Origin: Panopea generosa
Lineage: Eukaryota; Mollusca; Bivalvia; Adapedonta; Hiatellidae
Direction: 5' to 3'
Length of the DNA: 64,000 bases
Assembly (NCBI GenBank): GCA_029582155.1
Contig: CM055899.1
Coordinates: 58,755,349-58,819,348 of the forward strand
The notes beneath the pieces were generated by a model. The model did not search any database, was not told where the DNA came from, and saw only the letters and a list, made by a program, of their open reading frames with translations. The first letter of the stretch is position 1, and each line of letters starts with the position of its first letter. Shown here in pieces: positions 795 through 34,500 of the stretch. The translations under genes and the position numbers were made by a program.

Positions 795-1126
795 GCTGGT
801 GAGTATAAAATACCTCGAAATGTGTACACAGCATCCATTTATATTTGGCGGTTTGCTAGTACAGCAGATAGCCTAATTTTCAAATCCTCATAAAATTGAG
901 GTTAACGCATCGTGTGGGATGTGGTTGCCATGCAATTGCTACAATCGCCGGTCGTGGGTGATTGAGCGTCCCTTTCACTGTCTTATCTCTATATTTCTTC
1001 TGTCAAATAAAGTAACATCCTTTTCTTGTGTTTGAAGAAACCGGTTTGAGTCCATATTTTGGTAACTGGTTATTCTATCACTGGCCTTATTTCAGTATTT
1101 TCTGATAAATTTTCTTTCTTTATTTA

Positions 1127-2027
1127 CTGAGAGTTAAACAATGTACATGGAGATTTAGCTCCAAACAATATCGAAGTAGACGGAGAGCCAAACAATGTAG
1201 ATAGAGACTGAGAGCCAAACAGTATAGACGGAGATTGAGAGCTAAACAATGCAGATGGAGTCTGAGAGCCAAACAATGTTTATGGAGACGGAGAGTCAAA
1301 CAATGTAGATGGAGATTGAGAGCCAAACAATGTACATGGAGACTGATAGCCAAACTATGTAGATGTAGACTGAGGGCCAAACAATGTAGATAGAGACTAA
1401 GAGCCAAACAATATAGACGCAAACTGAGAGACAAACAATGTACATGGATACTGATATCCAACCTATGTAGATGGAGATTGAGAGCCAAACAATGTAGATG
1501 TAGACGGAGAGCCAAACAATGTAGATAGAGACTGAGAGTCAAACAATGTACATGGAGACTGAGATCCAACCTATGTCGATGGAGATTGAGAGCCAAACAA
1601 TGCAGATGTAGATGGAGAGCCTAAAAATGTAGATAGAGACTGAGTGTCTAGCAATGTAGATTGTGACTGAGAGCGAATCAATGTTTACGGAGACTGAGAG
1701 TCAAACAATAAGATGTCGACTGAGAGCCAAATAATATACATGGAGATTGAGAGTCAAACAATATCGATATAGACGGAGAGCCTAACAATGTAGATATACA
1801 CTGAGAGGCAAAAAATATAGACGGAGACTGAGAGACAAACAATGTAAATGGAGATTGAGAGCCAAACTTTATAGATGTGGATGTAGACTGAGTGTCAACA
1901 ATGTATATGGAGACTGAGAGCCAAACAATGTAGATGGAGACTGCGAGCAAAACAATGTAGATGACGATTGATTGCCAAATAATGTGGATGTAGACTGAGA
2001 GCCAAACAATGTAGATGTGGACTGAGA
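1127..2027. repeat. 27-bp minisatellite array A
   Basis: About 33 units of GAGAGCCAAACAATGTAGAT plus GGAGACT, with many substitutions. The period is a multiple of three and the unit lacks minus-strand stops, so long open minus-strand frames arise with a nine-residue periodicity such as LSLHLHCLA. Confidence 0.95.
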
Positions 2028-2140
2028 AATAAATAACAGTGAAATAAATCAGTCAGTGGCCTGTTTAGCAAAATAGTAATAAATAGCTATATTAGGTTGA
2101 TAACCGATATATTGTTTTGAATTGCACGACTTTTGTTATT

Positions 2141-2213
2141 GTGGCGTCCAAGTCCAGTGGTCGTGTCATTGGATTAGTATTCCAGGGTTTCGGGTTTGAT
2201 CCTCGGTTATGGC
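2141..2213 (+). repeat. tRNA-like SINE head (copy in unit A)
   Basis: The spacing resembles internal RNA polymerase III boxes: an A-box-like AAGTCCAGTGG and a B-box-like GGGTTTGATCC. No closed acceptor stem is seen, so this is a tRNA-derived repeat, not a tRNA gene. Confidence 0.5.
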
Positions 2214-2992
2214 ATTGATAAGTATTTCCCACATGTCGCATAAATCGGTGTTGTACACCGCGCATGTGGCGTGTATTCTGAATCTTGCACTATCCTCAAA
2301 AATTCTTATATAAAAATAACAGTCACCATAAACAACAATGGATTTGGAAGTTCTGGGAGCTACTTAAACTATTGCGCTCCCCATTATACTTGTAGTTAAG
2401 ACCTAACTTATATGACGGTAGGAAGATTGTTGCGCCCAAGAAATTAGATCTGTGTCAATCGGTTTAGCATTAGATCTATTTCTGTTGAAAATGCATATAA
2501 TTGTCATAATTTCTTTGTACATATGAGAACATTTGACACATTTTCATGAGTTCTGTAAAATTTTAATGACATTGGGCACTGCTTGATGATTCTTGCATAC
2601 CGGACAAGGATTTCCGCGTATTTAGTACCGGGTACGGAATTTTCAACATACACACCATCCACGCGCTTATCCTACACTGCAGTGACGTTGGAACAATTTA
2701 TGAGTTGACGTATTAAAACATATGACGTTGTATTTTTTATTTGACGTATACTGATAGTCGTTAAGTTGAACGTCTTGTTGAGTTTCTAATCAGTACTGTA
2801 CTGCTCTTGCGCCTATGGTATTTTATTTATAGACTACAGATAAAAAGCAAGGGAAGATTCAGGGGGGTACACCCCCCACCCCCAAAAAAATAATTTGGCA
2901 AGCATAGGTTTTTCTTCTACACATTTACTCTGAACTCAAGTTACCATCTAAACGAATTGTGTTAAAACAAATAAAGCACGTATATAAAGTAC

Positions 2993-3275
2993 CTGCGACG
3001 GATTGTTCAAAGGAGCAGTCGACTAGTGACAGCCTATCTCTCGCCGTTAAAGCCGTAGGTTCGGCCTCAATCGGTCCAAAAACTCCATCGGTGAAAGTAT
3101 ACAATATACTTGCGGAATGAAAGTGGTTCTACTCAAATCTATCTTGAGGTCTTCATCAACTAATAAAACTGGATATGCAATACATAATCAGCCATTTGTT
3201 GAAAATGACGTTAAGCACAATTGAGGACCTCAGTGTAGATTGAACTTAAATCAACCTTGGAGTTTAACGTAAAAA
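2993..3275 (+). repeat. SINE-like element in unit A
   Basis: A head with a B-box-like GTAGGTTCGGCCTC is followed by a body and the 3' motif TTGAAAATGACGTTAAG. That motif also ends the intronic SINE at 33341-33562. The corresponding segments are at ~6312-6590 and ~9697-9975 in units B and C. Confidence 0.55.
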
Positions 3276-3410
3276 AAGAAACGCAAAACATTATAATTAA
3301 TGTTGACTGTCATACACGTATATCAGTAACTTATATGCTGTGTCTGTGTAATCTAATATAAAAAATGTATGTTATTTTAATAGGGTTAATATTTTCAATA
3401 AGAAAAAGTC

Positions 3411-3416
<6 letters not shown>

Positions 3417-3465
<49 letters not shown>

Positions 3466-3480
3466 ATAATATATATATAT
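3417..3480. repeat. (TA)n microsatellite
   Basis: A long TA run, then TAGTCATAATATATATAT. Much shorter at the same place in units B (~6746-6763) and C (~10131). Confidence 0.95.
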
Positions 3481-3495
3481 TATTTAAATTTTTTT

Positions 3496-3572
3496 TCGCC
3501 TTCGCTGCGGCTCGAACATACGACATTCTGAGTGATAGTTATAGGCGTATGCCACTGCGCCACTTTGGAGCC
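3496..3572 (-). repeat. tRNA-like module, unit A
   Basis: On the minus strand GGCTCCAAAGTGGCGCAGTG gives a perfect A-box core (TGGCGCAGTGG), with TGTTCGAGCC as B box 40 bases on. The terminal stem is not convincing, so I call it tRNA-derived. Confidence 0.55.
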
Positions 3573-4046
3573 TAATAATAATACAACAGTTAACACCTTT
3601 TAAAGTTGTAAGATCATGAAAGGGGCGTCATTCTAGTTGACCGGAACTGGAATTAATTCATACGTTTGATATACGTTTTATGATATGTAAATTGTTGTGA
3701 CCGACTAAAATGTTTTGCTGGTGAGTATAAAATACCTCGAAATGTGTACACAGCATCCATTTATATTTGGCGGTTTGCTAGTACAGCAGATAGCCTAATT
3801 TTCAAATCCTCATAAAATTGAGGTTAACCCATCGTGTGGGATGTGGTTGCCATGCAATTGCTACAATCGCCGGTCGTGTATGATTGAGCGTCCCTTTCAC
3901 TGTCTTATCTCTATATTTCTTCTGTCAAATAAAGTAACAACATTTTCTTGTGTTTGAAGAAACCGGTTTGAGTCCATATTTTGGTAACTGGTTATTCTAA
4001 CACTGGCCTTATTTTAGTATTTTCTGATAAATTTTCTTTCTTTATT

Positions 4047-5354
4047 TCCTGAGAGTTAAACAATGTACATAGTGATTTAGATCCAAACAATATCGATGTA
4101 GACGGAGAGCCAAACAGTATAGACGGACACTGAGAGACAAACAATGTACATGGAGACTGAGAGCCAAACTCTGTAGATGTAGACCGAGACCAAAACGATG
4201 TAGATGGATATTCGGAGCCAAACAGTATAGACGGAGATTGAGAGCTAAACAATGCAGATGTAGTCGGAGAGCCAAACAATAAAGATGGAGATTGAGATCA
4301 AAACAACGTATCTTGAGACTGAGAGCCAAACAATGTAGATGGAGACTGAGCGTCAAACAATGTAGATGGAGTCTGAGAGCCAAACAATGTTTATGGAGAC
4401 GGAGAGTCAAACAATGTAGATGGAGATTGAGAGCCAAACAATTTAGAAGGAGACTGAGAGACAAGCAATGTACTTTGAGACTGATAGCCAAACTATGTAG
4501 ATGTAGACTGAGAGCCAAACAATGTAGATAGAGACTAAGAGCCAAACAATATAGACGGAAACTGAGAGACAAACAATGTACATGGAGACTGATATCCAAC
4601 CTATGTAGATGGAGATTGAGAGCCAAACAATGCAGATGTAGACGGAGAGCCATACAATGTAGATAGAGACTGAGAGTCAAACGATATAGACGGAAACTGA
4701 GAGACAAATAATGTACATGGAAACTGAGATCCAACCTATGTAGACGGAGATTGAGAGCCAAACAATGCAGTTGTAGACCGAGAGCCAAACAATGTAGATT
4801 GAGACTGAGAGTCAAACAACGTATATTGAGACTGAGAGCCTAACAATGTAGATAGAGACTGAGTGTCTAGCAATGTAGATTGTGTCTGAGAGCGAAACAA
4901 TGTTTATGGAGACTGAGAGTCAAACAACGTATATTGAGACTGAGAGCCAAACAATGAAGATAGAGCCTGAGTGTCTAGCAATGTAGATTGTGACTGAGAG
5001 CGAAACAATGTTTATGGAGACTGAGAGTCAAACAATAAGATGCCGACTGAGAGCCAAACAATGTACATGGAGCATGAGAGTCAAACAATATCGATATAGA
5101 CGGAGAGCCTAACAATGTAGATATACACTGAGAGCCAAAAAATATAGACGGAGATCGAGAGACAAACAATGTACATGGAGAGTGAGAGCCAAACTTTATA
5201 GCTGTGGATGTAGACTGAGTGTCAACAATGTATATGGAGACTGAGAGCCAAACAATGTAGATGGAGACTGCGAGCAAAACAATGTAGATGACGATTGATT
5301 GCTAAATAATGTTGATGTAGACTGAGAGCCAAACAATGTAGATGGAGACTGAGA
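4047..5354. repeat. 27-bp minisatellite array B
   Basis: About 48 units of the same 27-bp family. The right third (4830-5354) is nearly the same as the right part of array A, as expected for duplicated units. Confidence 0.95.
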
Positions 5355-5467
5355 AATAAATAACAGTGAAATAAATCAGTCAGTGGCCTGTTTAGCAAAA
5401 TAGTAATAAATTGCTATATTAGGTTGATAACCGATATATTGTTTTGAATTGCACGACTATTGTTATT

Positions 5468-5540
5468 GTGGCGTCCAAGTCCAGTGGTCGTGTCATTGGA
5501 TTAGTATTCCAGGGTTTCGGGTTTGATCCTCGGTTATGGC
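5468..5540 (+). repeat. tRNA-like SINE head (copy in unit B)
   Basis: Nearly identical to the copy at 2141-2213; duplicated with the large unit. Confidence 0.5.
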
Positions 5541-6778
5541 ATTGATAAGTATTTCCCACATGTCGCATAAATCGGTGTTGTACACCGCGCATGTGGCGTG
5601 TATTCTGAATCTTGCACTATCCTCAAACATTCTTATATAAAAATAACAGTCACCATAAACAACAATGGATTTGGAAGTTCTGGGAGCTACTTAAACTATT
5701 GCGCTCCCCATTATACTTGTAGTTAAGACCTATCTTATATGACGGTAGGAAGATTGTTGCGCCCAAGAAATTAGATCTGTGTCAATCGGTTTAGCATTAG
5801 ATCTATTTCTGTTGAAAATGCATATAATTGTCATAAATTCTTTGTACATAGGAGAGTATTTGACACATTTTCATGAGTTCTGTAAAATTTTAATGACATT
5901 GGGTACTGCTTGATGATTCTTGCATACCGGACAAGGATTTCCGCGTATTTAGTACCGGGTACGGAATTTTCAACATACACACCATCCACGCGCTTATCCT
6001 ACACTGCAGTGACGTTGGAACAATTTATGACTTGACTTTTAAAACATATGACGTTGTATTTTTTATTTGACGTATAATGATAGTCGTTAAGTTGAACGTC
6101 TTGTTGAGATTCTTACTAGTACTTTACTGCTCTTGCGCTTATGGTATTTTGTTTATAGACTATAGATAAAAAGCAAGGGTAGATTCAGGGGGGTACCCAC
6201 CCGAAAAAAAAATAATTTGGCAAGCATAGGTTTTTCTTCTACACATTTACTCTGAACTCAAGTTACCATCTAAACGAATTGTGTTAAAACAAATAAAGCA
6301 CGTATTTAAAGTACCTGCGACGGATTGTTCAAAGGAGCAGTCGACTAGTGACGGCCTATCTCTCGACGTTAAAGCCGTAGGTTCGGCCTCAATCGGTCCA
6401 AAAACTCCATCGGTGAAAGTATACGATATACTTGCGGAAGGAAAGTGGTTCTACTTAAATCTATCTTGAGGTCTTCGTCAACTAATAAAACTGGATATGC
6501 AATACATAATCAGCCATTTGTTGAAAATGACTTTAAGCACAATTGAGGACCTCAGTGTAGATTGAACTTAAATCAACCTTGGAGTTTAACGTCTCCAATA
6601 AAGAAACACACAACATTATCATTATTATTAATGTTGACTGTCATTCAAGTGTATCAGTAACTTATATGCTGTGTCTGTGTAATCTAATATAAAAAAATGT
6701 ATGTTATTTTAATATGGTTAATATTTTCAATAAGAAAAAGTCATAAAATATATATATATATATTATTTAATTTTTTTT

Positions 6779-6855
6779 TCGCCTTCGCTGCGGGTCGAAC
6801 ATACGACATTCTTAGTGACAGTTAAAGGCGTATGCCACTGCGCCACTTTGGAGCC
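6779..6855 (-). repeat. tRNA-like module, unit B
   Basis: Copy of the module at 3496-3572, with the A-box core kept and the B box reading TGTTCGACCC. Confidence 0.55.
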
Positions 6856-7334
6856 TAATAATAATACAACAGTTAACACCTTTTAAAGTTGTAAGATCAT
6901 GAAAGGGGCGTCATTCTAGTTGACCGGAACTGGAATTAATTCATACGTTTGATATACGTTTTATGATATGCAAGTTGTTGTGACCGACTGAAAAGTTTTT
7001 GCTGGTGAGTGTAAAATACCTCGAAATGTGTACATAGCATCCATTTATATTTGGCGGTTTGCTAGTACAGCATATAGCCTAATTTTCGAATCCTCATAAA
7101 ATTGAGGTTAACCCATCGTATGGGATGTGGTTGCTATCCAATTGCTACAATCGCCGGTCGTGGATGATTGAGCGTCCCTTTCACTGACTTATCTCTATAT
7201 TTCTTCTGTCTAATAAAGTAACACCCTTTTCTTGTGTTTGAAGAAACCGGTTTGAGTCCATATTTTGGTAACTGGTTATTCTAACACTGGCCTTATTTCA
7301 GTATTTTCTGATAAATTTTCTTTCTTAATTTACT

Positions 7335-8827
7335 GAAAGTTAAACAATGTACATGGAGATTTAGATCCAAGCAATATCGATGTAGAAGGAGACTGAGAGA
7401 CAAACAATGTACATGGAGACTGATAGCCAAACTATGTAGATGTAGACTGAGAGCCAAACAATGTAGATAGAGACTGAGAGCCAAACAATATAGACGGAAA
7501 CTGAGAGACAAACAATGTACATGGAGACTAAGATCCAATGTAGATGGAGATTGAGAGCCAAACAATGCAGATGTAGACGAAAGCCAAACAATGTAGATAG
7601 AGACTGAGAGCCAAACAATATAGACGGAAACTGAGAGACAAACAATATACATGGAGACTAAGATCCAATGTAGATGGAGATTGAGAGCCAAACAATGCAG
7701 ATGTAGACGAAAGCCAAACAATGTAGATAGAGACTGAGAGCCAAACAATATAGACGGAAACTGAGAGACAAACAATGAACATGGAGACTAAGATCCAATG
7801 TAGATGGAGATTGAGAGCCAAACAATGCAGATGTAGACGAAAGCCAAACAATGTAAATAGAGACTGAGAGTCAAACAATATAGACGGACACTGAGAGACA
7901 AACAATGTACATGGAGACTGAGAGCCAAACTTTGTAGATGTAGACTGAGAGCTAAACAATGTGCATGGAGAGTCAGAGCCAAACAGTATAGACGGAGATT
8001 GAGAGCTAAACAAAGCAGATGTAGTCGGAGAGCCAAACAATAAAGATGGAGATTGAGATCAAAACAACGTATCTTGAGACTGAGCGTCAAACAATGTAGA
8101 TGGAGTCTGAGAGCCAAACAATATTTATGTAAACAGAGAGTCAAACAATGTAGATGGAGATTGAGAGCCAAACAATGTAGAAGGAGACTGAGAGACAAAC
8201 AATGTACATGGAGACTGATAGCCAAACTATGTAGATGTAGACGGAGAGCCTTACAATGTAGATAGAGAGTGAGAGCCAAACAATATAGACGGAAACTGAG
8301 AGACAAATAATGTACATGGAGACTAAGATCCAACCTATGTAGATGGAGATCGAGAGCCAAACAATGCAGATGTAGACGGAGAGCCTTACAATATAGGTTG
8401 AGACTGAGAGTCAAACAACGTATATTGAGACTGAGAGCCTAACAATGTAGATAGAGACTGAGTGTCTAGCAATGTAGATTGTGTCTGAGAGCGAAACAAT
8501 GTTTATGGAGACTGAGAGTCAAACAACGTATATTGAGACTGAGAGCCAAACAATGTAGATAGAGACTGAGTGTCTAGCAATGTAGATTGTGACTGAGAGC
8601 GAAACATGTACATGGAGACTGAGAGTCAAACAATTAGATGTGGATGTAGACTGAGTGTCAACAATGTATATGGAGACCGAGAGTCAAACAATGTAGATGA
8701 AGACTGATAGCCAAACTATGTAGATGTACACGGAGAGCCAATGAAGATGGAGATTGAGATCAAAACAACGTATATTGAGACTGAGCGCCAAACAATGTAG
8801 ATGGAGACTGAGCGTCAATGTAGATGA
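7335..8827. repeat. 27-bp minisatellite array C1, with 130-bp higher-order repeat
   Basis: About 55 units of the 27-bp family. Near 7531, 7661 and 7791 the segment beginning AGATCCAATGTAGATGGAGA recurs every 130 bases, a higher-order repeat of five units less five bases. Confidence 0.93.
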
Positions 8828-9099
8828 AATCCTCACTAAATCTAGTGGAATGTTGTTGTTTTACAATTGCTAGAATCGCCGGTCGTGGATGATTGAGCGC
8901 CTTTTACTGTCTCTCTCTATCTATCATATGCCTAATTAAGTAACCTCATTGTCTTGCGTTTGAACAAACACGTTTGAGTCCATATTTACTGTGGAGTTCA
9001 AAGTTTGGCAACTAGTTATTCTTACACTCTAGCTTTTATTATACTGGTCTGATTTCAGTATTTCCTGCTAAATTAAGTTTTCTTTATCCTAAAGCTTTT

Positions 9100-9247
9100 T
9101 ATTGATTGAGAGCCAAACAATGTAGATGTAGACGAAAGGCCAAACAATGTAGATGGAGACTGTGAGCCAAACAATGTAGATGACGATTGATTACCAAATA
9201 ATGTGGATGTAGACTGAGAGCCAAACAATGTAGATGGAGACTGAGAA
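9100..9247. repeat. 27-bp minisatellite array C2 (short)
   Basis: Five or so 27-bp units after the folded-in flank, then the common right flank AAATAAATAACAGTGAAATA. Confidence 0.88.
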
Positions 9248-9359
9248 ATAAATAACAGTGAAATAAATCAGTCAGTGGCCTGTTTAGCAAAATAGTAATA
9301 AATTGCTATATTAGGTTGATAGCCGATATATTGCTTTGAATTGCACGACTATTGTTATT

Positions 9360-9432
9360 GTGGCGCCCAAGTCCAGTGGTCGTGTCATTGGATTAGTATT
9401 CCAGGGTCCCGGGTTTGATCCTCGGTTATGGT
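9360..9432 (+). repeat. tRNA-like SINE head (copy in unit C)
   Basis: Same module, here reading GGTCCCGGGTTTGATCC at the B-box-like site. Confidence 0.5.
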
Positions 9433-9564
9433 AATGAAAAGTATTTCCAACATGTCGCAACAACCGGTGTTGTTGAGTTTCTAATCAGTACTGTACTGCT
9501 CTTGCGGTTATGGTATTTTATTTATAGACTATAGATATAAAGCAAGGGCAGATTCAGGTGGGTA

Positions 9565-9586
9565 CCCCCCCCCCCCCCCCCCCCCA
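9565..9586. repeat. Poly(C) run
   Basis: C homopolymer inside unit C, where units A and B have short C runs. Confidence 0.9.
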
Positions 9587-10155
9587 CCGAAAAAAATAAT
9601 TTAGCAATCATAGGTTTTTCTTCTACACATTTCCTCTGAACTCAAGTTACCATCTAAACGAAATGTGTTAAAACAAATAAAGCACGTATTTAAAGTACCT
9701 GCGACGGATTGTTCAAAGGAGCAGTCGACTAGTGACGGCCTATCTCTCGCCGTTAAAGCCGTAGGTTCGGCCTCAATCGGTCCATAAACTCCATCGGAGA
9801 AAGTATACGATATACTTGCGGAAGGAAAGTGGTTCTACTCAAATCTATCTTGAGGTCTTCGTCAACTAATAAAACTGGACATGCAATACATAATCAGCCA
9901 TTTATTGAAAATGACGTTAAGCACAATTGAGGACCTCAGTGTAGATTGAACTTAAATAAACCTTGGAGTTTAACGTCTCCAATAAAGAAACACACAACAT
10001 TATCATTATTATTAATGTTGACTGTCATTCAAGTGTATCAGTAACTTATATGCTGTGTCTGTGTAATCTAATATAAAAAATGTATGTTATTTTAATATGG
10101 TTAATATTTCCAATAAGTAAAAGTCGTAAATATATATATTATTTAATTTTTTTTT

Positions 10156-10231
10156 CGTCTCTGATGCGGCTTGAACATACGGCATTCTGAGTGACAATTA
10201 AAGGCGTATGCTACTGCGCCACTTTGGAGCC
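10156..10231 (-). repeat. tRNA-like module, unit C
   Basis: Copy of the same module with a decayed B box (TGTTCAAGCC). Confidence 0.5.
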
Positions 10232-10375
10232 TAATAATAATACAACAGTTAACACCTTTTAAAGTTGTTAGATCGTGAAAGGGGCGTCATTCTAGTTGAC
10301 CGGAACTGGAATTAATTCATACGTTTGATATACGTTTTATACTATGCAAATTGTTGTAACCGACTAAAAGGTTTT

Positions 10376-11265
10376 GCTGGTAAAGTAGATAGCCTAATTT
10401 TCAAATCCTCATAAAATTGAGGTTAACCCATCGTGTGGGATGTGGTTGCTATGCAATTGCTACAATCGCCGGTCGTGGATGATTGAGCGTCCCTTTCACT
10501 GTCTTATCTCTATATTTCTTCTGTCAAATAAAGTAACATCATTTTCTTGTGTTAGAAGAAACCAGTTTGAGTCCATATTTTGGTAACTGGTTATTCTAAC
10601 ACTGGCCTTATTTCAGTATTTTCTGATAAATTTTCTTTCTTTATTTACTGAGAGTTAATGTAGATGCCGATTGAGAGCCAAATAATGTACACGGAGATTG
10701 AGATACAAACAATATCGATGTCGACGGAGAGCCAAAAAATGTAGATAGAGACTGAGAGCCAAACAGTATAGACGGACACTGAGAGACAAACAATGTACAT
10801 GGAGACTGAGAGCCAAACTCTGTAGATGTAGACTGAGAGCAAAACAATGTACATGGAGATTCAGAGCCAAATAATATAGACGGAGATTGAGAGCTTAACA
10901 ATGCAGGTGTAGACGGAGAGCCAAACAATGAAGATAGAGATTGATATCAAAACAACGTATCTTGAGCCTGAGAACCAAACAATGTAGATTGAGTATGAGA
11001 GCCCAACAATGTTGATGGAGATGGAGAGTCAAACAATGTTGATGGAGGTTGAGAGCCAAACAATGTAGAAGGAGACTGAGTGTCTAGCAATGTAGATTGT
11101 GTCTGAGAGCGAAACAATGTTTATAGAGACCTAGAGTCAAACAATTAGATGCCGACTGAGAGCCAAACAATGTACATGGAGATTGAGAGTCAAACAATAT
11201 CGATATAGACGGAGAGCCTAACAATGTAGATAGAGACTGAGAGCCAAAAAATATAGACGGAGTTC
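10376..11265. repeat. Large tandem unit D, truncated
   Basis: Begins as the other units but lacks the ~70 bases around TATTTGGCGGTTTGCTAG. It runs into a 27-bp array and stops at 11265, where a different tandem family takes over. Confidence 0.85.
10650..11262. repeat. 27-bp minisatellite array D
   Basis: About 22 units of the 27-bp family in the truncated fourth unit, abutting a GAAAAAGAGGCCTC array. Confidence 0.92.
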
Positions 11266-18985: not shown

Positions 18986-21900
18986 CTGAAAAAGATATTA
19001 AAATAATGAACACTCGAAAATAGTATATGAAAACAGAGCAGAATGATTTTTCTCCTTTAGAATGCAACAACGTGTTCTTGCTATGTAAATGGAATATAAC
19101 CATGACACGTATTTTAAGAGAAAGCAATACTTGTTTGTTTAAACTTATTTATTTTACTTCGATTGTGAAACAAGTTCTTACAACTTAGACAAATCGTGCT
19201 CGAAGTCTTCCTGGGTAGAACCAGTACAAAGCATATGCGGAAAAAAGAGTCTTGCTCAAGGACGCTGCACGTAGCCGTAGAGGAGGATCGAACCAACAAC
19301 GACCCTCCGATCATGGGTTCGGTAGAAACCAATAGATATACACTTACAACCATTATTCTTACTCTAAATAACAGAGGCGGAGTGAACATTTATAATAATT
19401 GTGTTAAACTTTTTTTTATATATTTACTCTATGTTTTACATTTTATTTTGTCCAACTGATTCAAAGGCTCATATTTCAAACACATTACCTCAACGAAAAT
19501 TAAATAATAAAAAGTTTCAAAACTTAAAAAATGATGTATATATGTATATTAAAGGGACCTCTTCAATCTTCTACCAGGCAGGCCAGCAGGGTCGATGAAT
19601 GCCCGGTCTAGTTGCATTAATTGATCATTAATTCGACGAACGGCAAATGGACTGAAAGGTACAAAAGGGATTAAATAGTTTTAAAAACATAAATATAAAA
19701 CATTTTAAAGAAATAATGCCCCTCTGAAATTTTTTCGTAACTTCAAATTTTACACTTAGAAGTTCATAAACTTACGAACGTTAGTGGAACGGGCCCCAGA
19801 CTCGTACTTTATTTACTCTAACAACTAATAGCTAATGTTCATACACTTACATAACGTTCATCCTTTAACATACAGTTATATTTTCCATTTGTTTTATCAT
19901 TTGTTTACCTATTCAGACTTCTGTTTATGGAACTATATTCTATCATATATATATAAAAAATAAACTGCTAATATCACCAGTTCGTTTAAACCCTTATATT
20001 TACAATCGCGTCATTTAATTTGCATCTTGTGGCTCTCATTGCATCCATATACATAAATATTTTATCTTGTCTGTTTATTCATTGCATGTGCTTATACGTT
20101 AAATTAATGTTGTACTTTGTAAATAAGCTGAGGGCCTCATGTAAAACTGAAGTAACTCAAATAACTGTTTTCGTTAATTAAAGGCTTTACTTATTATTAA
20201 TTTTTCTTTATTTTCATAAACATTATTACTATTATTATATTTATCAATTTTATCATTATTTATAATTATAATCATCACTATAATTATTATTATTATTATT
20301 ATTATATTATAAATATAATATATGACACCGGTATGCTGACTGTAACATAGTTTTACATCGTCTGGTATCTACTTACTTGTTCAGATTTGTGTCTCTAATT
20401 CGTTTTTCAAATTCATGAACAACACCAGTGAAGTTAGCTATAGCAACAGTCAGAAGAGCTGAAACAAACAAGTAGATTTTAATTTATTTCATGTTTTCTA
20501 AGTTGTAACTATTGAATGTTGTATTAGATATTGTATTATTTACGCATGTTATACATTGATTGATTGAATATTTAGCGTCATTGTTATGCGATAGAGGGCT
20601 AACAGACGACCAGTTAACCTAACCACTGTTTCCTGGGATTAACCAGTACTCGAGCACATCCAATCTCCGCAAGTAACTGATAACTTTCCCACTTGAATCA
20701 GTGGTGAGAGACGAATGATAATGAGACACAATGTCTTATATCAATCTTCAAGGAGATTGTTGCCGTGCGGGGGATTCGAACTCACGACCGCTGGATTGAT
20801 AGTCAGACGCACAACCGGCGCATGTTATACAGCGAAGCAAAGAGATGTCGGATTGATGAGGTAGTCTTCAGCAATTAGAAAATTGTTACAATACTGTTGT
20901 TTCGGTGGCTGTTTTCTCCTGTGATATACATACATATCAGATGGTTGCACATAAACCAGAAACAACGTGTTTGTATAGAAACATTTTTTATGAAAAATAT
21001 ATAAAAAAGGATGAATGCGCACTGTCGAATGTTGTATTCGCTTGTTATATGATGCGATGAACAAGTGCACCAAGGTCAATCAGATCAATTGGAATCTTCA
21101 GAAAAAGCAGTCAGTTTTCGTTGTCGACAGCCATTTTGTACGAGAATATTGTAATCGTCTGAAAACATTACTTGTTGTGTAACTTACACGTATTGAGGTC
21201 ATGATTCTCCATTATCGTCCCGTATTCTTTCAGCAGGGTTTTACCGAAGTCAGCCATCACTAAACCGTAATCCGATACGTTGAATGGTAATATTAAACTA
21301 TCCGATAGGTGGCGCGCCATCTCTACCCAAACCCGACCAATAGCTGTATGGTACTGAAATATATATTAGGCTTACATGAAACAAAAAAAAATATATTTTT
21401 AATTTCATAAGTTACTTTTTAATATCGTGTCTTATATTATTTAAATAATATAATATTGTTGATGCATATAGCGAATAATCTCTGGAACTGTGACATAATA
21501 GTATGACCGTTCAGCCAATATCAACCCTAAGGCTTGTACGAAACGGGGATTCAAACTCTGGTTGCAGTGGGGGAAAAAGAGAGATATTGCTTGCAGTGGC
21601 GCTTATTAGACGTGAGAGACGTGGCAACAACCACTGGCAATTTTATTTTAAACATTGATGAGAAAATTGTACTCAATCTAATAGAATATTTTAAAAAAAA
21701 TGAACGCAGCCGCTTCCACCTAACACAAATAAGGCGATCAACGTTTTCATAATAAAAGCTTTATAAGCATGCATATAATAGAAGCTATAGTCGTACCTTA
21801 AATCCTCTGTCCATGATTGTATCAACCAAACGGAATGTCTCGTAAACCGAATGGTACATCGGATATGTAGACACATTAAACGTTTTCTATAATAGAATAG

Positions 21901-24900
21901 AATATACTTGTTATCGAACGGTTCATCGGACATGAAGACACTCAAGCGTTTCTATTATAAACTATGAGAGACACTCGTTATCGAACGGTTCATCGGACAT
22001 GAAGACACCTTAAACGATTCTTTTATAAACTATGAGAGATTCTTGTTAGCAACGGTTCATCGGATAAACGATTATTTTATAAACTATGAGAGATACTTGT
22101 TAGCAACGGTTCATCTGATATGAAGACACCTTAAACGATTCTTTTATAAACTATTAGAGATACTTTTCATTGAACGGTTCATCGCACATGAAGACACCTT
22201 AAACGTTTCCATTATAAACTATGACAGATATTTGTTATCGAACAGTTCATCGAACATGAATACACACACTGTTTCTATTACACTATTATGAGAGATACTT
22301 GTTATCGAACGGTTCATTGGACATGATGACACACAAACGTTTCTATTATAAACTATGAGATATACTTGTTACCGAACGGTCATTGGATATGAAGACACTC
22401 AAACGTTTCTATTACAAACTATGAGAGATACTTGTTATCGAACGGTTCATCGGATATGAAGACACACAAACGTTTCTATTATAAACTATGAGATATACTT
22501 GTTACCGAACGGTCATCGGATATGAAGACACCTCAAACGTTTCTATTATAAACTATGAGAGATACTTGTTACCAAAAGGTAATCGGATATAAAGACACCT
22601 CAAACGTTTCTATTATAAACTATGAGAGATACTTGTTATCGAACGGTTCATCGCACATGAAAACACTCAAATGTTTCTATTATAAACTATGATAGATACT
22701 TGTTAGCAATGGTTCATCGGACATGAAGACACTCAAACGATTCTAATATAAACTATGAGAGATACTTGTTACCGAACGATCATCGGACATAAAGACACCT
22801 TAAACGTTTCAATTATAAACTCTGAGAGATACTTGTTATCGAACGGTTCATCGAACATGAAAACACACAAACGTGTCTATTATAAACTATGAGAGATACT
22901 TGTTATCGAACTTTTCATCGAACATGAAGACACACAAACATTTCTATTACAAACTATTAGAGATACTTATTATCGAATGGTTCATCGGATATGAAGACAC
23001 CTTAAACGTGTCTATTATAAACTATGAGAGATACTTGTTATCGAATGGTTCATCTGATATAAAGACACTCAAACGATTCTATTATAAACTATGAGAGATA
23101 CTTGTTATCGAACGATCATCGGACATGAAGACACCTCAAACGATTCTATTATAAATTATGAGAGATACTTGTTATTGAACGGTCATCGGACATGAAGACA
23201 CCTCAAACGATTCTATTATAAACTATGAGCGATACTTGTAATCGAACGGTTCATCGGACATGAAGACACATTAAACATTTCTATTATAAACTATGAGAGA
23301 TACTTGTTACCGAACGGTCATCGGAAATGAAGACACCTTAAACGTTTGTATTATAAACTATGAGAGATACTTGTTAGCAACGGTTCATCTGATATGAAGA
23401 CACCTTAAACGATTCTTTTATAAACTATGAGAGATACTTGTTATCGAACGGTTCATCGGACATGAAGACACCTTAAACGTTTCCATTATAAACTATGAGA
23501 GATACTTGTTATCAAACAGTTCATCGCACATGAAGACACACACTGTTTCTATTACAAACTATGAGAGATACTTGTTATCGAACGGTTCATTGGACATGAT
23601 GACACACAAACGTTTCTATTATAAACTATGAGATATACTTGTTGCCGAACGGTCATCGGATATGAAGACACCTCAAACGTTTCTATTATAAACTATGAGC
23701 GATACTTGTTATCGAACGGTTCATATGACATGAAGACACACAAAAGTTTTTATTATAAACTATGCAAGATACTTGTTATCGAACTTTTCATCGCACATGA
23801 AGACACACAAACATTTCCAATATAAACTATGAGAGATACTTGTTTTCGAACAGTTAATCGAACATGAAGACACACACACGTTTCTATTACAAACTATGAG
23901 AGATACTTGTTATCGAACGGTTCATCGGATATGAAGACACACAAACGTTTCTATTATAAACTATGAGATATACTTGCTACCGAACGGTCATCGAATATGA
24001 AGACACCTCAAACGTTTCTATTATAAACTATGAGAGATACTTGTTACCGAAAGGTCATCAGATATGAAGACACCTTAAACGTTTCTATTATAAACTATGG
24101 GAGATACTTGTTATCGAACGGTTCATCGCACATGAAGACACTCAAACGTTTCTATTATAAACTATGATAGATACTTGTTAGCAATGGTTCATTGGACATG
24201 AAGAGGCTCAAACGATTCTATTATAAACTATGAGAGATACATGTTAGCAACGTTTCATCGGACATGGAGTCACTCAAACGATTAGAATATAAACTATGAG
24301 AGATACTTGTTACCGAACGATCATCGGACCTGAAGAAACCTTAAACGTTTCAATTATAAACTATGAGAGATACTTGTTATCGAACGGTTCATCGGACATG
24401 AAGACACACAAACAGTTCCATTATAAACTATGAGAGATACTTGTTACCGAACGATCATCGGATATGAAGACACCTTAAACCTTTCTATTATAAACTGTTA
24501 GAGATACTTGTTATCAAACTGTTCATCGGATATGAAGACACCTTAAACGTTTCTATTATAAACTATGAGAGATACTTGTTATCGAATGGTTCATCGGACA
24601 TGAAGACACACAAACATTTCCATTATAAACTATGAGAGATACTTGTTACCGAATGATCATCGGATATGAAGACACCTTTAACTTTCTATTATAAACTATT
24701 AGAGATACTTGTTATCGAACGGTTCATCGGATATGAAGACACCTTAAACGTTTCTATTATAAACTATGAGAGATACTTGTTATCGAACGGTTCATCGGAC
24801 ATGAAGACACACAAACGATTCTATTATAAACTATTAGAGATACTTATTATCGAATGTTTCATCGGATATGAAGACACCTTAAACGTGTCTATTATAAACT

Positions 24901-27900
24901 ATGAGAGATACTTGTAATCGAACGGTCATCGGACATGAAGACACCTCAAACGATTCAATTATAAATAATGAGAGATACTTGTTATTAAACGGTCATTGGA
25001 CATGAAGACACCTCAAACGATTCTATTATAAACTATGAGCAATACTTGTTATCGAACGGTTCATCGGTCATGAAGACACTCAAACGATTCTTTTATAAAC
25101 TGTGATAGATACTTGTTATCGAATGGTTCATCTGATATAAAGACACTCAAACGATTGTATTATAAACTATGAGAGATACTTGCAACTGAACGGTCATCGG
25201 ACATGAAGACACCTCAAACGATTCTATTATAAATTATGAGAGATACTTATTATTGAACGGTCATCGGACATGAAGACACCTCAAACGATTCTATTATAAA
25301 CTATGAGAGATACTTGTTATCGAACGGTTCATCGGACATGAAGACACTCAAACGATTCTTTTATAAACTATGAGAGATACTTTTTAGCAACAGTTCATCG
25401 GATATGAAGACACCTTAAACGATTCTTTTATAAATCATAAGAGATACTTGTTATCGAATGGTTCATTGGACATGAAGACACTCAAACGATTTTATTATAA
25501 ACTATGAGAGATACTTGTTGTCGAACGGTTCATCGGAAATGAAAACACCTTAAACGTTTGTATTATAAACTATGAGAGAAACTTGTTATCGAACGGTTCA
25601 TCAGAAATGAATACACTCAAACGTTTCTATTATAAACTATGAGAGATACTTGTTATCGAACGGTTCATCGGATATGAAGACACACAAACGTTTCTATTAT
25701 AACTTATGAGAGATACTTGTTATCAAACCGTTCATCGAACATGAAGACACACAAACGTTTCTATTATAAACTATGAGCGATACTTGTTATCGAACGGTTC
25801 ATCGAACATGAAGACACCTTAAACGTTTCTATTATAAACTATGTGAGATACTTGTAATCGAACGGTTCATCGAACATGAAGACACACAAACGTTTCTATT
25901 ATAAACTATGAGCGATACTTGTTATCGAACGGTTCATCGGACATGAAAACACCTTAAACGTTTCAATTATAAACTATGAGAGATACTTTTTATCGAACAG
26001 TTCATCGGACATGAAGACACCTTAAACGTTTCTATTATAACTTATGAGAGATACTTGTTATCAAACAGTTAATCGAACATGAAGACACACAAACGTTTCT
26101 ATTATAAACTATGAGCGATACTTGTTATCAAACGTTTCATCGGACATGAAGACACCTTAAACGATTCTTTTATAAACTATGAGAGAAACTTGTTATCGAA
26201 CGGTTCATCGGACATGAAGACACTCAAGCGTTTCTATTATAAACTGTGAGAGATACTTCTTATGGAATGGTTCATCGGACATGAAGACACACAACCGTTT
26301 CTATTATAAACAATAAGAGATACTTGTTATCGAACGGTTCATCGGACATGAAGACACTCAATCGTTTCTATTATCAACTATGAGAGATACTTGTTATCAA
26401 ACGGTTCATCGGACATGAAGACACTCAAATGTTTCTATTATAAAATATGAGAGATATTTGTTATCGAACGGTTCATTGGACATGAAAACACTCAAACGAT
26501 TCTATTATAAACTATGAGAGATACTTGTTATCGAACTGTACATCGGACATTAAGGCACCTTAAACGTTTCTATTATAAACTATGAGATATACTTATTATC
26601 GAACGGTTTATCGGACATGAAGACACTCAAACGTTTCTATTATAAAGTATGAGAGATACTTGTTACAGAACGGTCATCGGAAATGAAGACACTCAAACGT
26701 TTCTATTATAAACTATGAGAGATACTTGTTATCGAACAGTTCATCGGACATGAAGACACATTAAACGTTTCTATTATAAACTATAGGGAGATACTTGTTA
26801 TCGAACGGTTCATCGGACATGAAGCCACCTTAAACGTTTCTATTATAAACTATGAGCGATACGTGTTACCGAACAGTTCATCGGACATGAAGACACCTTA
26901 AACGTTTCTCTTATAAACTATGAGAGATACTTGTTATCGAACAGTTTCTTAAAAAAAACCCCATATCATTCATCATATCTTACTTTTCTATTTTAACGAT
27001 AATATAAATTAACATGCTGATAAAATAGTCTTACCTTGTCGTATGTATATGTCATAGATGCGATTGGTACACCGATCCTATCTCTAAAAGGTGCATCGTC
27101 ACTCCCAGCGCCGGGTAACGTTATCCTGCAATATAATCAAATATAAATCAAATACTGACTCTGTAAACATTGCCTTTAAATGCTGTTAATTCACATTTCT
27201 TTGTTATCACTGTTGTGTGAGGACCTTTTAATAATGTTTCAATAGCGGAAACATCGAGGTCGGGTCCACTTTTAAATAGCATATCCCAGAACCTGATATC
27301 TCCCGAATCAGGTCTGTTAACCTACGAATGAAAAAGCAGAGACTTCTGTGCCAGTCCCATAATTCATAGCAATTGAACGCGCATACTAAACTGTGATCCC
27401 AATCAAACGGACCAATCAACGTACTCAAATGTGGTTTTCCCAACATTGCTATTTAACTGACCAAATCGGGAGCTCGATCCGTTCTACAGACTAACCAGTT
27501 ATAAGCTCTCCGGTTTGTTATTGACCAAGAACATTTAATCCATCGAACATTTTACTGTGTTGACCATGTACTTTGAAAGCTACAACTCCATTTTTTCTAC
27601 ATATTTTCTTTTTAGGTATTGCCCATTATTATTATATGCATTAATGTGCTACTGTGGTGGATGTGTCTTTTTACTGCTACGTCTTCTATTGTATCTACAT
27701 TTCCCCATTATTTATGACAAATAAAACCAATCAGTTTAGTAAAATCAGAAAGGCAGTATTATCCTTTGTCTGATCTAAGCTTACTTCAATAAATATTCAC
27801 AACAAAAAGTTAAGTCATTACAAATACATGAGAAATAATTGAAAGCCAGACGTGTGCCTTGATGTGAACATTTATTTTAAAAATTTCAAGATTCAAGATT

Positions 27901-28587: not shown

Positions 28588-31500
28588 GAAGTAGCATGGT
28601 GGAAAAAGTTTGGACCTTTTTTATTTTCGATATTTTCAACTATCCAAATCAATTGGAACCTACATATGAGAAATCCTTAGAAAGCCATATATAAAATAGT
28701 TGACAAATTTCAATGAAACGTAATAGTAACGTTATATAAATATAAACTATCCTCAGGAAACGCAGCAAAGTAGCTCGAATAGCGAACACATCACTTTTGT
28801 GGTTTTCAATATTTAAGCAACATCTTTCTAAGTTACTTACTCGGGTCTGTCATCTTGTTTTGATGGTAATGCCATCTTCCAGGTATCGTAAACAGTTGCT
28901 CTGCCCTCGGCTATCTCTGTTTGGTTTGGGTTGGAAACCCTTTTTGTCGCAGCAAATAATGACTTCATTATCAGCGGCGTTCCCCGAGCCCAAAACGTGT
29001 AATTGCCTGAATAAAGTGACGAAAATACCAGACACTGAATGGTTAACATTATAAACAGTTAAAAACGTCAGATCGTGTAGACATGAAAGAGCAACACTGA
29101 TAAATATTGTTGTTATTGTTACTATTGTTATTCTTTAAGTCATCGAGCCAAGTCGTTTCTAGGGTGTGTGTGAGTGTGGGGTTAGGGCATGATTGGTGTT
29201 GCATGTTTCATTAAACTTCATGATAAGATTACGTAAAAACCGAGTCTTCTCATGATTGCTTTCTCTGTTTCCAATGGATCCTTTTTGTCATATATTACTT
29301 TTTATGAAAGAAACGAAAGGAAAAAACAAAAGAACTTCGTCCTTATTGATGAAAGTAAAAAATAAAATACATCGATACACGTCTTACAACTTAGACAAAT
29401 CAAACCATAAGTCGTCCTGGGTAGAACCAGAACTAAGCCAAAGCTAATAAAGTTTCTTGCTCAAGGTCACCACACGTGGAAATGCAAATAGAAACTGGAG
29501 AATAAACAAGAGCTTATCATTCTCAAAAATGATAACAAACAAATGGATAAATATGTCAATGCATATTATATATAATAGAAAATCTTTATCAAGTTATTAA
29601 TGTAAAGAAGTAACAACAAAACACCAAGTAAAGTGGGCATTTTAATTGCCGGGAATTATATATTTAATTCCTGAAGAGATAGATTATTTACCAATATATA
29701 TATATACACATCAAAACATATATGGGCATACAAAACCGCCGAATACAAAGTAATGAGCATAAAAACAACAACAATGCTCCAACGTCATTTGCATATAGTC
29801 GATATAATGAATCCAGCATAAACTTGAAAAGAGGAACGCGGGTTTGTATTTTAAACAATATGAGCTTAATTGACTCCTTGGAAGACACAGAACGTAACCA
29901 AAAGAAAAAAAACACAGTCTATTTTTTTGAGACTATTCACGAGAGCGAATGAAACATTACTCTATATCTACTAGTATCGGATTAAGCGGTAGCATGTTCT
30001 TCTGTCCTAGAGCTGCACAGAATTCGTTCCATGGTTTTAAAAAATCAGATATAGCAATAACATCGAGTAAAATACCAGGCGATTCTTTACGACCACAGCA
30101 CAGCACATTATTAAAAGATATTTCAAAATACTTGTCGACTTTTTACGGTCATAACACCGAAAATTGTTATATGATATTTCAAAAATGAGACAAGACAATC
30201 TAATATAATACGTTACCTTCCACTGCTATGTCGACATTGAGGTATGCGATCGCTCTTGCACCAAGTGACTTGGTGTAATGCTAAAATTGAAATGAAAAGA
30301 ATTGAACTTATTATATATTTGGAATGAATATTTTAGTGGACTTTGTTTAAATGAGAAATACAAAATGAAAACACACATTTTAAGTATCAAAATTGTTACT
30401 CTAAATTGTTTTTGAAAGGATCCATTAGATTCATCGACATCTAAAATAAAATAATTGGCATGCTTATCTTCTAAGGTGAACTATTTTGGAATATATGATT
30501 AACAGTACCTCCACCCACTCAGTAGATCCAACCAGGCCATACTCCTCGGCACCCCAGCTACAGAACACAATACTTCGTCTTGGTCGCCAACGTCCTGTTG
30601 GTGAGTCCATTATTTTACTTTTTTTTGTATGATGAACGACAAAAACATAACTATCATACTATAGGTGAATATATAGTGAGAATATTCATGGTTACTTAAA
30701 CAAAGCAGAAAAAGAATGGTTTTATTGGTGTCTTTTATTTACATGCTCAAATATTGTGTACAATAATTAAAGCTTAATATATTAGAAAATGGCTAACGGT
30801 AATATATATAAGGTTGACAGTGTTTACAGTATAACACATGCTATTGTGTGAAATGTTGTAGATGTTGTAGGCTTGTCAATTTACAATCGTGACGTACCTG
30901 ACTTGACTAGGTCACCCATAACACGTGACATTTCCATCATTATAGCTGTACCACCGGATGCGTCAACAGCACCAAATACCCAAGCGTCTCTATGATTACC
31001 CACAAGAACGTACCGATCTGAAAATGAATCACGATTTATATCATATGGTCGACTGGTAACTATATTGTAGTTTAGGGATGAGCGAACATGCAATATAGGT
31101 CTCCATATACCTTATACATTATCTATGCTTCCATTGTTATTTTTTCTATGTTTAGATATACCATTTACATTTTAAATGCTTCCGTTGGTATACTTAGTAT
31201 TTATCAATATGCCTTATATATTCTATATGTTGCATTTTATGTTCTAAATATTTCTCAATTATTCAGTGAATATACCTTATACAGTATGTTACGGTATACC
31301 GTGTACAGCATGTACGTTGTCATTGGTATTTTAAGTATTTCTTCATATGCCTTATATATTCTATACGATGACATTTATGTTCTAAATACTTCCCCATATA
31401 GGTCTCACTGGGGAATTACCTCCCATACATGACGGTAGCAAGATTATTACGCCAAAGAAATTAGAGCTGTGTAAAGCGATTGGGCAATTGTTTCGTTAAA

Positions 31501-34500
31501 AATATATAAAATGTCATATTTCTATGTTTAGATATACCATTTACATTTTAAATGCTTCCGTTGGTATACTTAGTATTTATCAATATGCCTTATATATTCT
31601 ATATGTTGCATTTTATGTTCTAAATATTTCTCAATTATTCAGTGAATATACCTTATACAGTATGTTACGGTATACCGTGTACAGCATGTACGTTGTCATT
31701 GGTATTTTAAGTATTTCTTCATATGCCTTATATATTCTATACGATGACATTTATGTTCTAAATACTTCCCCATATAGGTCTCACTGGGGAATTACCTCCC
31801 ATACATGACGGTAGCAAGATTATTACGCCAAAGAAATTAGAGCTGTGTAAAGCGATTGGGCAATTGTTTTGTTAAAAATATATAAAATGTCATATTTCTT
31901 TGTGCATATTGGAACATTGGAACATTTTCATGATTTCTGCAAAGTTTGGGTGACATTGGGAACTGTTTGATGATGCTATAACAGTTTAAAGATGCGTAGT
32001 GATACACTGCAACAAATGGGCAGGATTGGCAAAAATGAAGGGGTGCAAACAAACCATCGAAATTGTGAAAAAGCAACCTGTTCAACCCCATGTTTTTTCT
32101 GTATATTTGGACCAACAGAGGACTATCTATGGGAATACAGCACTTTTAGAACCATTGGTAATGTATCAAGTGTTCCAGAAGTGCATGTCTCTATATGTAG
32201 AACAGTACAAAATTAATTGGTGTGTGAGACGTATACATTTATATACGTTAACATTGATATGCATTCGAAGTGTCACTCATTTGTTGAACCTATATTATAT
32301 TACGTAGTTCGCGCGCGTTTGTAGATATGATCGCTACAACCATTTGTCAAATTGGGTGCACCTGTTTATCAGGTTTATGCTCCTCACTGACAATTACAAA
32401 GCAGTCACTTAAGGATTAAAAACCCAATTTGAGTTGTCATCGGGTGATGACAAACATTAAGCCACTTTGATATCCATGAAGCCTGAAGGGCTTCTCTGCA
32501 CCATTAAACTAGTAAAATGTTTTTCATCACCTGATAAAATCTCAAAATTCGGCTTATAATTATTATATTTACATTACTATTTCAGTTAAAACTATCACGT
32601 TTGTTTTGCAAATTTTCATATTTAAAAAGCAGATTATACGCATTAAACCGCAAAGCTAAGGTCATAAATGTAACGGCGACGTTGTCAACATACTGAATAC
32701 GTGCACGCATTTGTTGGCAACTTACGGCAAACGTCACGTGACGTCTCACCAGTAAAACGAACTCGTGCAACCAATGAAATGCAAACTGGTCCTTTTTAAG
32801 CTCCGCCCGGCTGCAAATACTTTTCATTGGGAAAAGAACCGCAGTTGATCTATATAGTTCTTTTAGGCTGTTTGCAGCAGAAATCTCAATATTTCTCTAT
32901 ATTGTCCTTATTATGAGTAGTTTATATAGTGAAATGTCATAGACACGCCGGGTGAATTTCAGAGTCACATTGACAGTGTAAGCGATACTTACATTTTTTA
33001 AATGAATGTAAATATGTAAAGGTATTGCATCATACTATCATTATTATTGCCAAAATCGTTAATGAAATATATATTCTAAAACTGAAAAACTTGCTTACAA
33101 TTGTTTGATAATTAGGCTCTGAAATTTCGGCGTTTCTTTATACTTTCAATATATATTACATATGCTATTGTGTGGCTGTTTTCTTTGCATGCTTAGTTTT
33201 CTGTTTGACATATATAAAGTTTTTTTTTATTATTTGTACCTGGTTCAATACTTCCTCTGATAATACCAATAGCGTTGTACGTCATTACACGTTTATTACT
33301 TGTAGATACCATAATATGTGCTTTCCTGGAATGATAAAATAGTGTGTTTTTTTTTGTATTTTTGATGGGGTTTAACGTCATTTTCAACATATTTCAGGTT
33401 ATATATACAGAGGCAGACTGAGCTGAACCACCGTACTTCCGCAAGTAACAGGCAAACTTTCACACATAATTTTTTGGAGCGATCGGGACTCGAACCTATG
33501 ACTTTAGCGAGACATGTGATCTTGAGACGGCGCTTTAGATCACTCGGCCACAGAGGACCCCCTAATGACAGCTGCAACGTGGTGATCCTGGTTGTCATAT
33601 CACCCCTCTGTATGTACTGTACTTATTATAGTCTGACAGGAATACTTTCATTTACACGTTTTGTCTTATGGTGAGATGACGGGAGAAGAGCGAGATTGGA
33701 TGCACTCACTGATCAGGTTTAAAGTTCACCACTGGCGACTTTTGCTACTGACCGTTCCAATGCAGAGACCCTGTTGCCACATGTTCTCTATGCTTGTATT
33801 GTAGTTATGTTGATAATTCTGTATGCTGATTGTTTTCATGCTGTTTCAATGGTTTTGAATGTTATGGATCCTATTTGTTACATATATCTGCATTCTGTAT
33901 TATAACCAACATGGCTTAACATGATAAACACAATACTACATTTCTTCAAAAAAGATGAGAAAGAACTTTCAGTTTAAATTGAAATTATATACAGATACAA
34001 GTAACGTTTCTGTAAAACTTTACAATATAGGGAGAACTGTAACTAATGTGGAAAACATTGTGGTTCAATCCATTGGAGTATATTATATATAAATTTGTAT
34101 TGTGAGGTGATCATCATTCTCTGTAACATGAGTAATACAATATGTTTAAATTAAATTTTGAATTCGAAACTTACTAAATAGTCGAAATTCATCACAATAG
34201 TCTCCAATATTGCATCATGTGACAAAAGAAATCATAAGACTCACCGTACTGTTTATTATTTACTGATTTACAAAAAAAAACCCATTAAATTTTGTACTAC
34301 ACGTTTATTTTCAGAAAAAAAATTGTCAAAGGTTATTTCATAAATATTTGTCTAAAAATCACAATTATTGAATGTATTTTCACATTGAAAGGTTTAAAGT
34401 AAAGAAAAACTTGAAACATGAACTAAAAAAGTTTTTATGTACACATCTTCATTATAGTAGAAATATTATTATGTTATTTAAAAAAATGTAGGACATTCGA

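Follow-up and report, generated by a model that had tools for sequence, protein, structure and literature searches.

In the window analysed here, 64,000 nucleotides of the bivalve Panopea generosa (contig CM055899.1, hereafter C6), a NAALADase/glutamate-carboxypeptidase-like gene of the M28 family carries in its intron 12 a tandem array that is most probably an exon-edge minisatellite ('mirage') seeded at the acceptor between intron 12 and exon 13. A stretch of about 70 bp lying over this acceptor would have been duplicated in tandem in the line leading to the window gene, and the duplicated unit would then have grown to about 75 copies within the intron, possibly by slippage or unequal exchange. 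We read the array as a rooted example of a coding-exon edge becoming a large intronic repeat, with the state before the expansion kept in two paralogs.

The gene lies on the minus strand, as do all its parts given below (18781-39569, by tblastn of bivalve proteins; start and stop are approximate), and its exons are numbered as in the original prediction. Exon 12 (27035-27125; tblastn block, donor read in the sequence, acceptor by spliced alignment) is followed by intron 12 (21887-27034, 5148 bp), which is almost wholly repeat, and by exon 13 (21797-21886; 90 bp, 30 residues, from the sequence and tblastn, donor by spliced alignment). The start of the intron (26947-27034) is not repeated, and its first bases are like those of the paralogs' intron 12, as judged by eye. 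Tandem Repeats Finder (TRF) called the array at 21848-26946, with a period of 67 and 76.1 copies. Segmentation divided it into 77 pieces, 51 of them 67 bp long: the exon 13 junction (21848-21914), 75 units (21915-26937; GC content 0.34) and, at the far end, a partial unit of 9 bp (26938-26946). The original prediction had counted some 75 copies filling intron 12, in agreement with these 75 units of about 67 bp. Pairwise identity among the units averages 0.857, with a maximum of 0.985, and a lag comparison of the units revealed no outstanding lag that would indicate a higher-order repeat. That the repeat was collapsed or invented during assembly is very improbable: the array is seen in assembly sequence alone, but a single read error does not yield units this different from each other, and other genes carry similar arrays.

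The unit aligns over its full length with the first 39 bases of exon 13 and the last 28 bases of intron 12, and this putative seed copy (21848-21914) is itself the terminal unit of the array. The homology proposed in the original prediction does reach through the acceptor; its coding part comprises 39 bases, not about 45. Similarity was measured against the unit consensus, with 5000 dinucleotide shuffles as the null. Exon 13 coding DNA scored 44 and the best shuffle 30, and as no shuffle reached the exon 13 score (0/5000), chance similarity was rejected. The intron part alone scored 26 (equalled in 29/5000 shuffles) and exon 13 of parA, one of the two paralogs introduced below, scored 33 (equalled in 1/5000); the remaining window gave top scores of 27 on the plus strand and 32 on the minus strand. 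The exon frame of the unit consensus fits the SYPMNRSI that had been predicted, and the conserved His of exon 13, which we take from human GCPII to be a zinc ligand, has become Arg in most copies (CGT in 63 of the 75 units, CAT in 10, another base in 2).

Shuffled sequence scoring equally well was one of two outcomes that had been named as fatal to the original prediction; the other, the same satellite elsewhere in the genome, was not seen either. When the genome (1.47 Gb, 39 contigs) was searched with the unit consensus, at least 76 matches were obtained, and 76/76 fell inside the window array. With a 301-base probe, unit matches outside the array were confined to two paralogs, at their exon 13 junctions. 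Within the search made, the array is a minisatellite of 5 kb at one locus and not a genome-wide satellite: the many or long arrays across the genome that define satellite DNA in the strict sense were not found, the match counts being lower bounds. The 'satellite' of the original prediction is thus a real tandem array, for which its single locus makes minisatellite the fitting word.

A paralog cluster on contig C4 (24.12-24.37 Mb), marked by ten exon 14 matches, bears on the direction of copying. Two of its members, parA and parB, carry the whole unit, intron part included, just once, at the exon 13 acceptor, with 79.7% and 78.3% identity to the unit consensus. This single unit lies 229 bp (parA) and 237 bp (parB) from the nearest copy of exon 12; measured from the first copy the distances are longer (929 and 377 bp), as both paralogs carry repeats of exon 12. 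Of the other C4 paralogs, 6 have both exons (introns of 574, 581, 914, 1086, 1086 and 1098 bp); no unit match was found in these, and TRF reported only short repeats. The exon motif is conserved in the family, and 108 of 120 listed relatives have it. Together, the single units, which sit at this very splice site in both paralogs, and the conserved motif give good support, at the level of sequence comparison, to a descent of the array from the exon 13 boundary, the direction originally proposed. The opposite order, a satellite from which the exon 13 edge was later built, has nothing in its favour beyond the homology itself and is scarcely conceivable given a motif this widespread and paralogs that have the exon but not the array; we rejected it on the single-copy paralogs.

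Two codons further suggest that the array is a fossil of the exon. At one, a Lys codon base is common to the array (72/75 units), parA and parB, where the window exon reads Asn; at the other, a Ser codon base is common to the array (73/75 units), parA and parB, where the window exon reads Thr. Among the 108 motif-bearing relatives, Ser occurs in 82 and Thr in 2 at the latter site, and Lys in 38 and Asn in 7 at the former. By parsimony, the array would thus preserve Lys and Ser states that the window exon has lost. In a tree of 78 rows (75 units, the window junction, parA and parB) and 68 columns, one branch separates all 75 units from the window junction and both paralogs, with a support of 96/83, as expected had the units expanded from exon 13. 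The junction copy stands outside the unit branch, in the manner of the boundary copy of a mirage that escapes homogenisation. Relations among the units are mostly without resolution (13/75 inner branches starred). The units differ from each other by 0.123 on average, and the window gene differs from parA by 0.213 at fourfold sites (272 sites); taken at face value, the array would be younger than the paralog split, though homogenisation can hide age.

Splice sites were scored with a matrix built from 41 introns of three genes. The real exon 13 acceptor AG (21887-21888) scores 9.0, exactly the mean of the 41 true acceptors, and the parA and parB acceptors score 8.3. The AG is kept in 59 of the 75 units, so that the splice signal survives in many but not all of them, as in other mirages, and the copies are low-scoring: the 64 array AGs aligned to the copied acceptor average 1.8, with a maximum of 4.4, and none of them reaches the tenth percentile of true acceptors (5.1). 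None of the 268 AGs in the array equals the real acceptor. Control intronic AGs (n=2195) reach the lowest true score in 10.1% of cases and the tenth percentile in 5.1%. The copied acceptors share one founder and hence are not independent. Their scores appear too low for competition with the real acceptor. Because the real acceptor scores normally and the copied ones low, intron 12 is probably spliced normally despite the array, and the array is most likely without a function of its own.

The copies do not look coding either. At the start of the exon-derived part one base is missing in all 75 aligned units and another in 39; therefore, a copy spliced at its own AG would begin out of frame. Units differ among themselves by 0.137 in exon-derived columns vs 0.107 in intron-derived ones, and the minus strand of the array has stops in every frame, its longest open run being 49 codons. 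A coding role was rejected on the base missing in all units and on the exon-derived part not being better conserved. The array might instead act on splicing, for example as a block of decoy acceptors or regulatory sites tuning exon 13 inclusion; skipping this exon would cost the enzyme its conserved His, presumably a zinc ligand. Retained AGs and frequent donor-like sites would suit such a role, but the copied acceptors are low-scoring, the units show no constraint and paralogs do without the array, and we regard a regulatory function as improbable.

Several observations weigh against a silent minisatellite born at this acceptor. Ten of the 64 matched AGs do reach the lowest true acceptor (3.1), as do 14/268 of all array AGs, two of which reach the tenth percentile, the best scoring 7.7. 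A donor-like CAA/GTATCT, close to the true-donor mean, recurs on the minus strand in many units of 21915-26937, and 68/506 GT sites of the array reach the tenth percentile of true donors, so that the array may not be wholly silent. In tblastn, peptides (one example has 14 residues) can still be read from a few units. For the far end of the array, likeness to the paralog intron was judged by eye only, and array length and splicing were both read from the sequence of one assembly. For microhomology at the duplication junction, nothing of at least 7 in 8 was present at the expected offset and none was clear; the likeness of CATTCG and CATTGG is at most suggestive. Lastly, the survey described below is small and unevenly drawn, by clustering or list order.

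In a first screen, exon blocks were compared with the introns of their own gene. Copies were found at 1/15 blocks of the window gene (exon 13, 68 matches) and at 2/16 blocks each in parA and parB (exons 2 and 12, in part probably inherited from a common ancestor). For the survey of unrelated genes, which served as an outside control, we sampled 45/81 myosin-head matches (24 loci, chosen where matches cluster, blind to repeats) and 6/57 ABC-membrane matches (the first in list order). Clear edge copies were present at 7/51 exon matches, 5/45 in myosin and 2/6 in ABC-membrane genes. The myosin acceptor cases are L066 (44 bp x 5.2), L071 1887-2084 (60 bp x 2.6), each with an exon part of about 9 bases by eye, and L084 3240-3395 (47 bp in two blocks); the donor cases are L069 (41 bp x 5.2) and L071 667-1005 (one extra copy). 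Both ABC-membrane cases are at donors, L088 with 80 bp in at least 8.5 copies and L089 with 46 bp in at least 13.5. Three more myosin rows stayed outside the clear count: L083 (exon part of some 10 bases at most) and L084 539-679 (81% over 42 bp) were weak, and L072 was intron only. GC content was 0.349 in the surveyed loci and 0.340 in the window array. There was no sign of the catalytic exon being a special seed: myosin and ABC-transporter exon edges carry similar arrays.

Splice junctions might themselves be hot spots, transcription, R-loops or splicing-linked breaks at the exon edge preferentially starting duplications. Edges indeed recur, at exon 13 of the window gene, at exons 2 and 12 of parA and parB and at the 7/51 matches elsewhere, and in the part of the chicken study available to us over 90% of the sources lie at most 1 base from an exon border (PMC12954441). 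The 30 survey loci hold 32 arrays with a period of at least 15, covering 6676/61524 bases; they overlap exon-match edges (by at least 8 bases) 6 times, vs a mean of 9.0 under random placement, so that more overlaps than random, as preferential seeding would produce, were not seen. Among 2000 random placements, 1917 had at least 6 overlaps and 231 at most 6. None of the 32 arrays in these loci was wholly inside an exon match; selection would seem to keep arrays out of exon interiors, which by itself might be enough for an exon-based screen to return nothing but edges. In this small sample neither a special role of catalytic exons nor a splice-junction hot spot is supported, and we give the hot spot a small chance only.

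Passive sweeping-up of exon edges by frequent local tandem duplication is instead the likeliest cause, because the overlaps between arrays and edges are not above random; this part of the explanation rests on the small survey. We would give even chances to a broader statement, that this genome forms intronic arrays so often that about one in seven exons of multi-exon genes has an edge copied, splice sites included. If the survey holds, some invertebrate genomes would have in exon-edge repeats a general supply of cryptic splice sites; such repeats would be peculiar neither to birds nor to amphioxus and would need no high GC.

Other copies in parA and parB concern whole exons or other edges. The intron 12 of parA contains five extra tandem copies of the whole exon 12 with a 140-bp period (L011 5117-5959, C4); these are 94-98% alike, and parB has 1 extra copy. 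Compared with the window array, they occur in the same gene family and the same intron, but the seed exon is on the opposite side and the whole exon is duplicated. Each parA copy carries an AG as well as a donor, either GTAATG or GTAAGG. As the length of exon 12 is not a multiple of three, no more than a single copy would be usable at once; the parA copies are possibly an incipient cluster of mutually exclusive exons. In parB (L014, about 3130-3375) the two exon 12 copies encode SASDYASFRDRL and GSGSDHAPFRDRI, and the second in gene order has ATAAGG where a GT donor is expected. The 3' end of exon 2 with its donor has one extra copy shortly inside intron 2 in both paralogs (L013 534-566 in parA, L015 6080-6161 in parB), above the shuffle threshold; none was found in the window gene. 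Two further paralogs, L061 (C4:24184000-24186400) and L062 (C4:24348000-24350600), have exons 12 and 14 with no exon 13 match between them, and would therefore be without the conserved YPMYHS segment.

As to the host gene, its sequence matches in PDB are GCPIII (3fec), a NAALAD-like protein (4twe) and GCPII, and its nearest named protein among the 120 relatives listed is a NAALAD2-like protein of Mercenaria mercenaria (58%). The locus is absent from the matches listed in a Pfam M28 search of the genome. TRF also reported a 376-bp stretch present twice inside the gene (31143-31903, 99% alike) and, downstream of it, a 27-bp repeat in five blocks (1126-11262) with the consensus CTGAGAGCCAAACAATGTAGATGGAGA.

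The original prediction knew of no comparable case; arrays of the same kind have in fact been described in amphioxus and in chicken, as the accessible parts of these reports make clear. Amphioxus 'mirages' are known from Adh3 and the globins BflGb6 and BflGb9 (PMC3087553) and from troponin C and PGBD5 (PMC3902484). Like the window array, they are tandem units over an exon-intron boundary, in the intron beside the source exon, often with AG or GT kept, and in BflGb6 the copied stretch likewise joins an intron's 3' end to the 5' part of the exon; its two haplotypes contain 6 and 3 units of 150-160 bp (PMC3087553), where the window array has 75 of about 67 bp. Undisturbed regular splicing and length instability between haplotypes also count as mirage features. 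Unlike the mirages described in those parts of the amphioxus papers, the window array has single-copy paralogs showing the prior state, and its host is a bivalve.

Chicken 'exon stuttering', in what we could consult of its report, affects 236 introns in 115 genes with 1-44 copies; 190/236 introns are on dot chromosomes, the authors associate it with high GC, the length of the introns differs from one individual to another, and gerbil genes are mentioned without data (PMC12954441). There too a coding-exon edge and its splice site are copied repeatedly through the adjacent intron, which is what we see in the window, and the exon part is of similar size (20-187 bp, median 36; 39 in the window array) (PMC12954441). 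Unlike this dot-chromosome stuttering, the window array is not on a GC-rich dot chromosome: its GC is 0.340 and contig C6 measures 87 Mb. Its copies number 75. Repeats and exon duplications in an earthworm metallothionein are not termed exon-edge derived in the portion of that paper available (PMC12783039), and no exon-edge repeats in a bivalve were found in the literature searched, which has few subscription journals. If the broader statement on frequent intronic arrays is true, exon-edge minisatellites would also occur in a protostome genome that is rich in AT and has large chromosomes, the proposed link with GC-rich dot chromosomes would fall, and single-copy paralogs would allow each birth to be timed. 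Novelty lies in the animal group (as far as the literature searched goes), in the number of copies, in the single-copy relatives and in the survey; the window array itself belongs to the kind already described in amphioxus and chicken, of which it is a large and well-rooted member.

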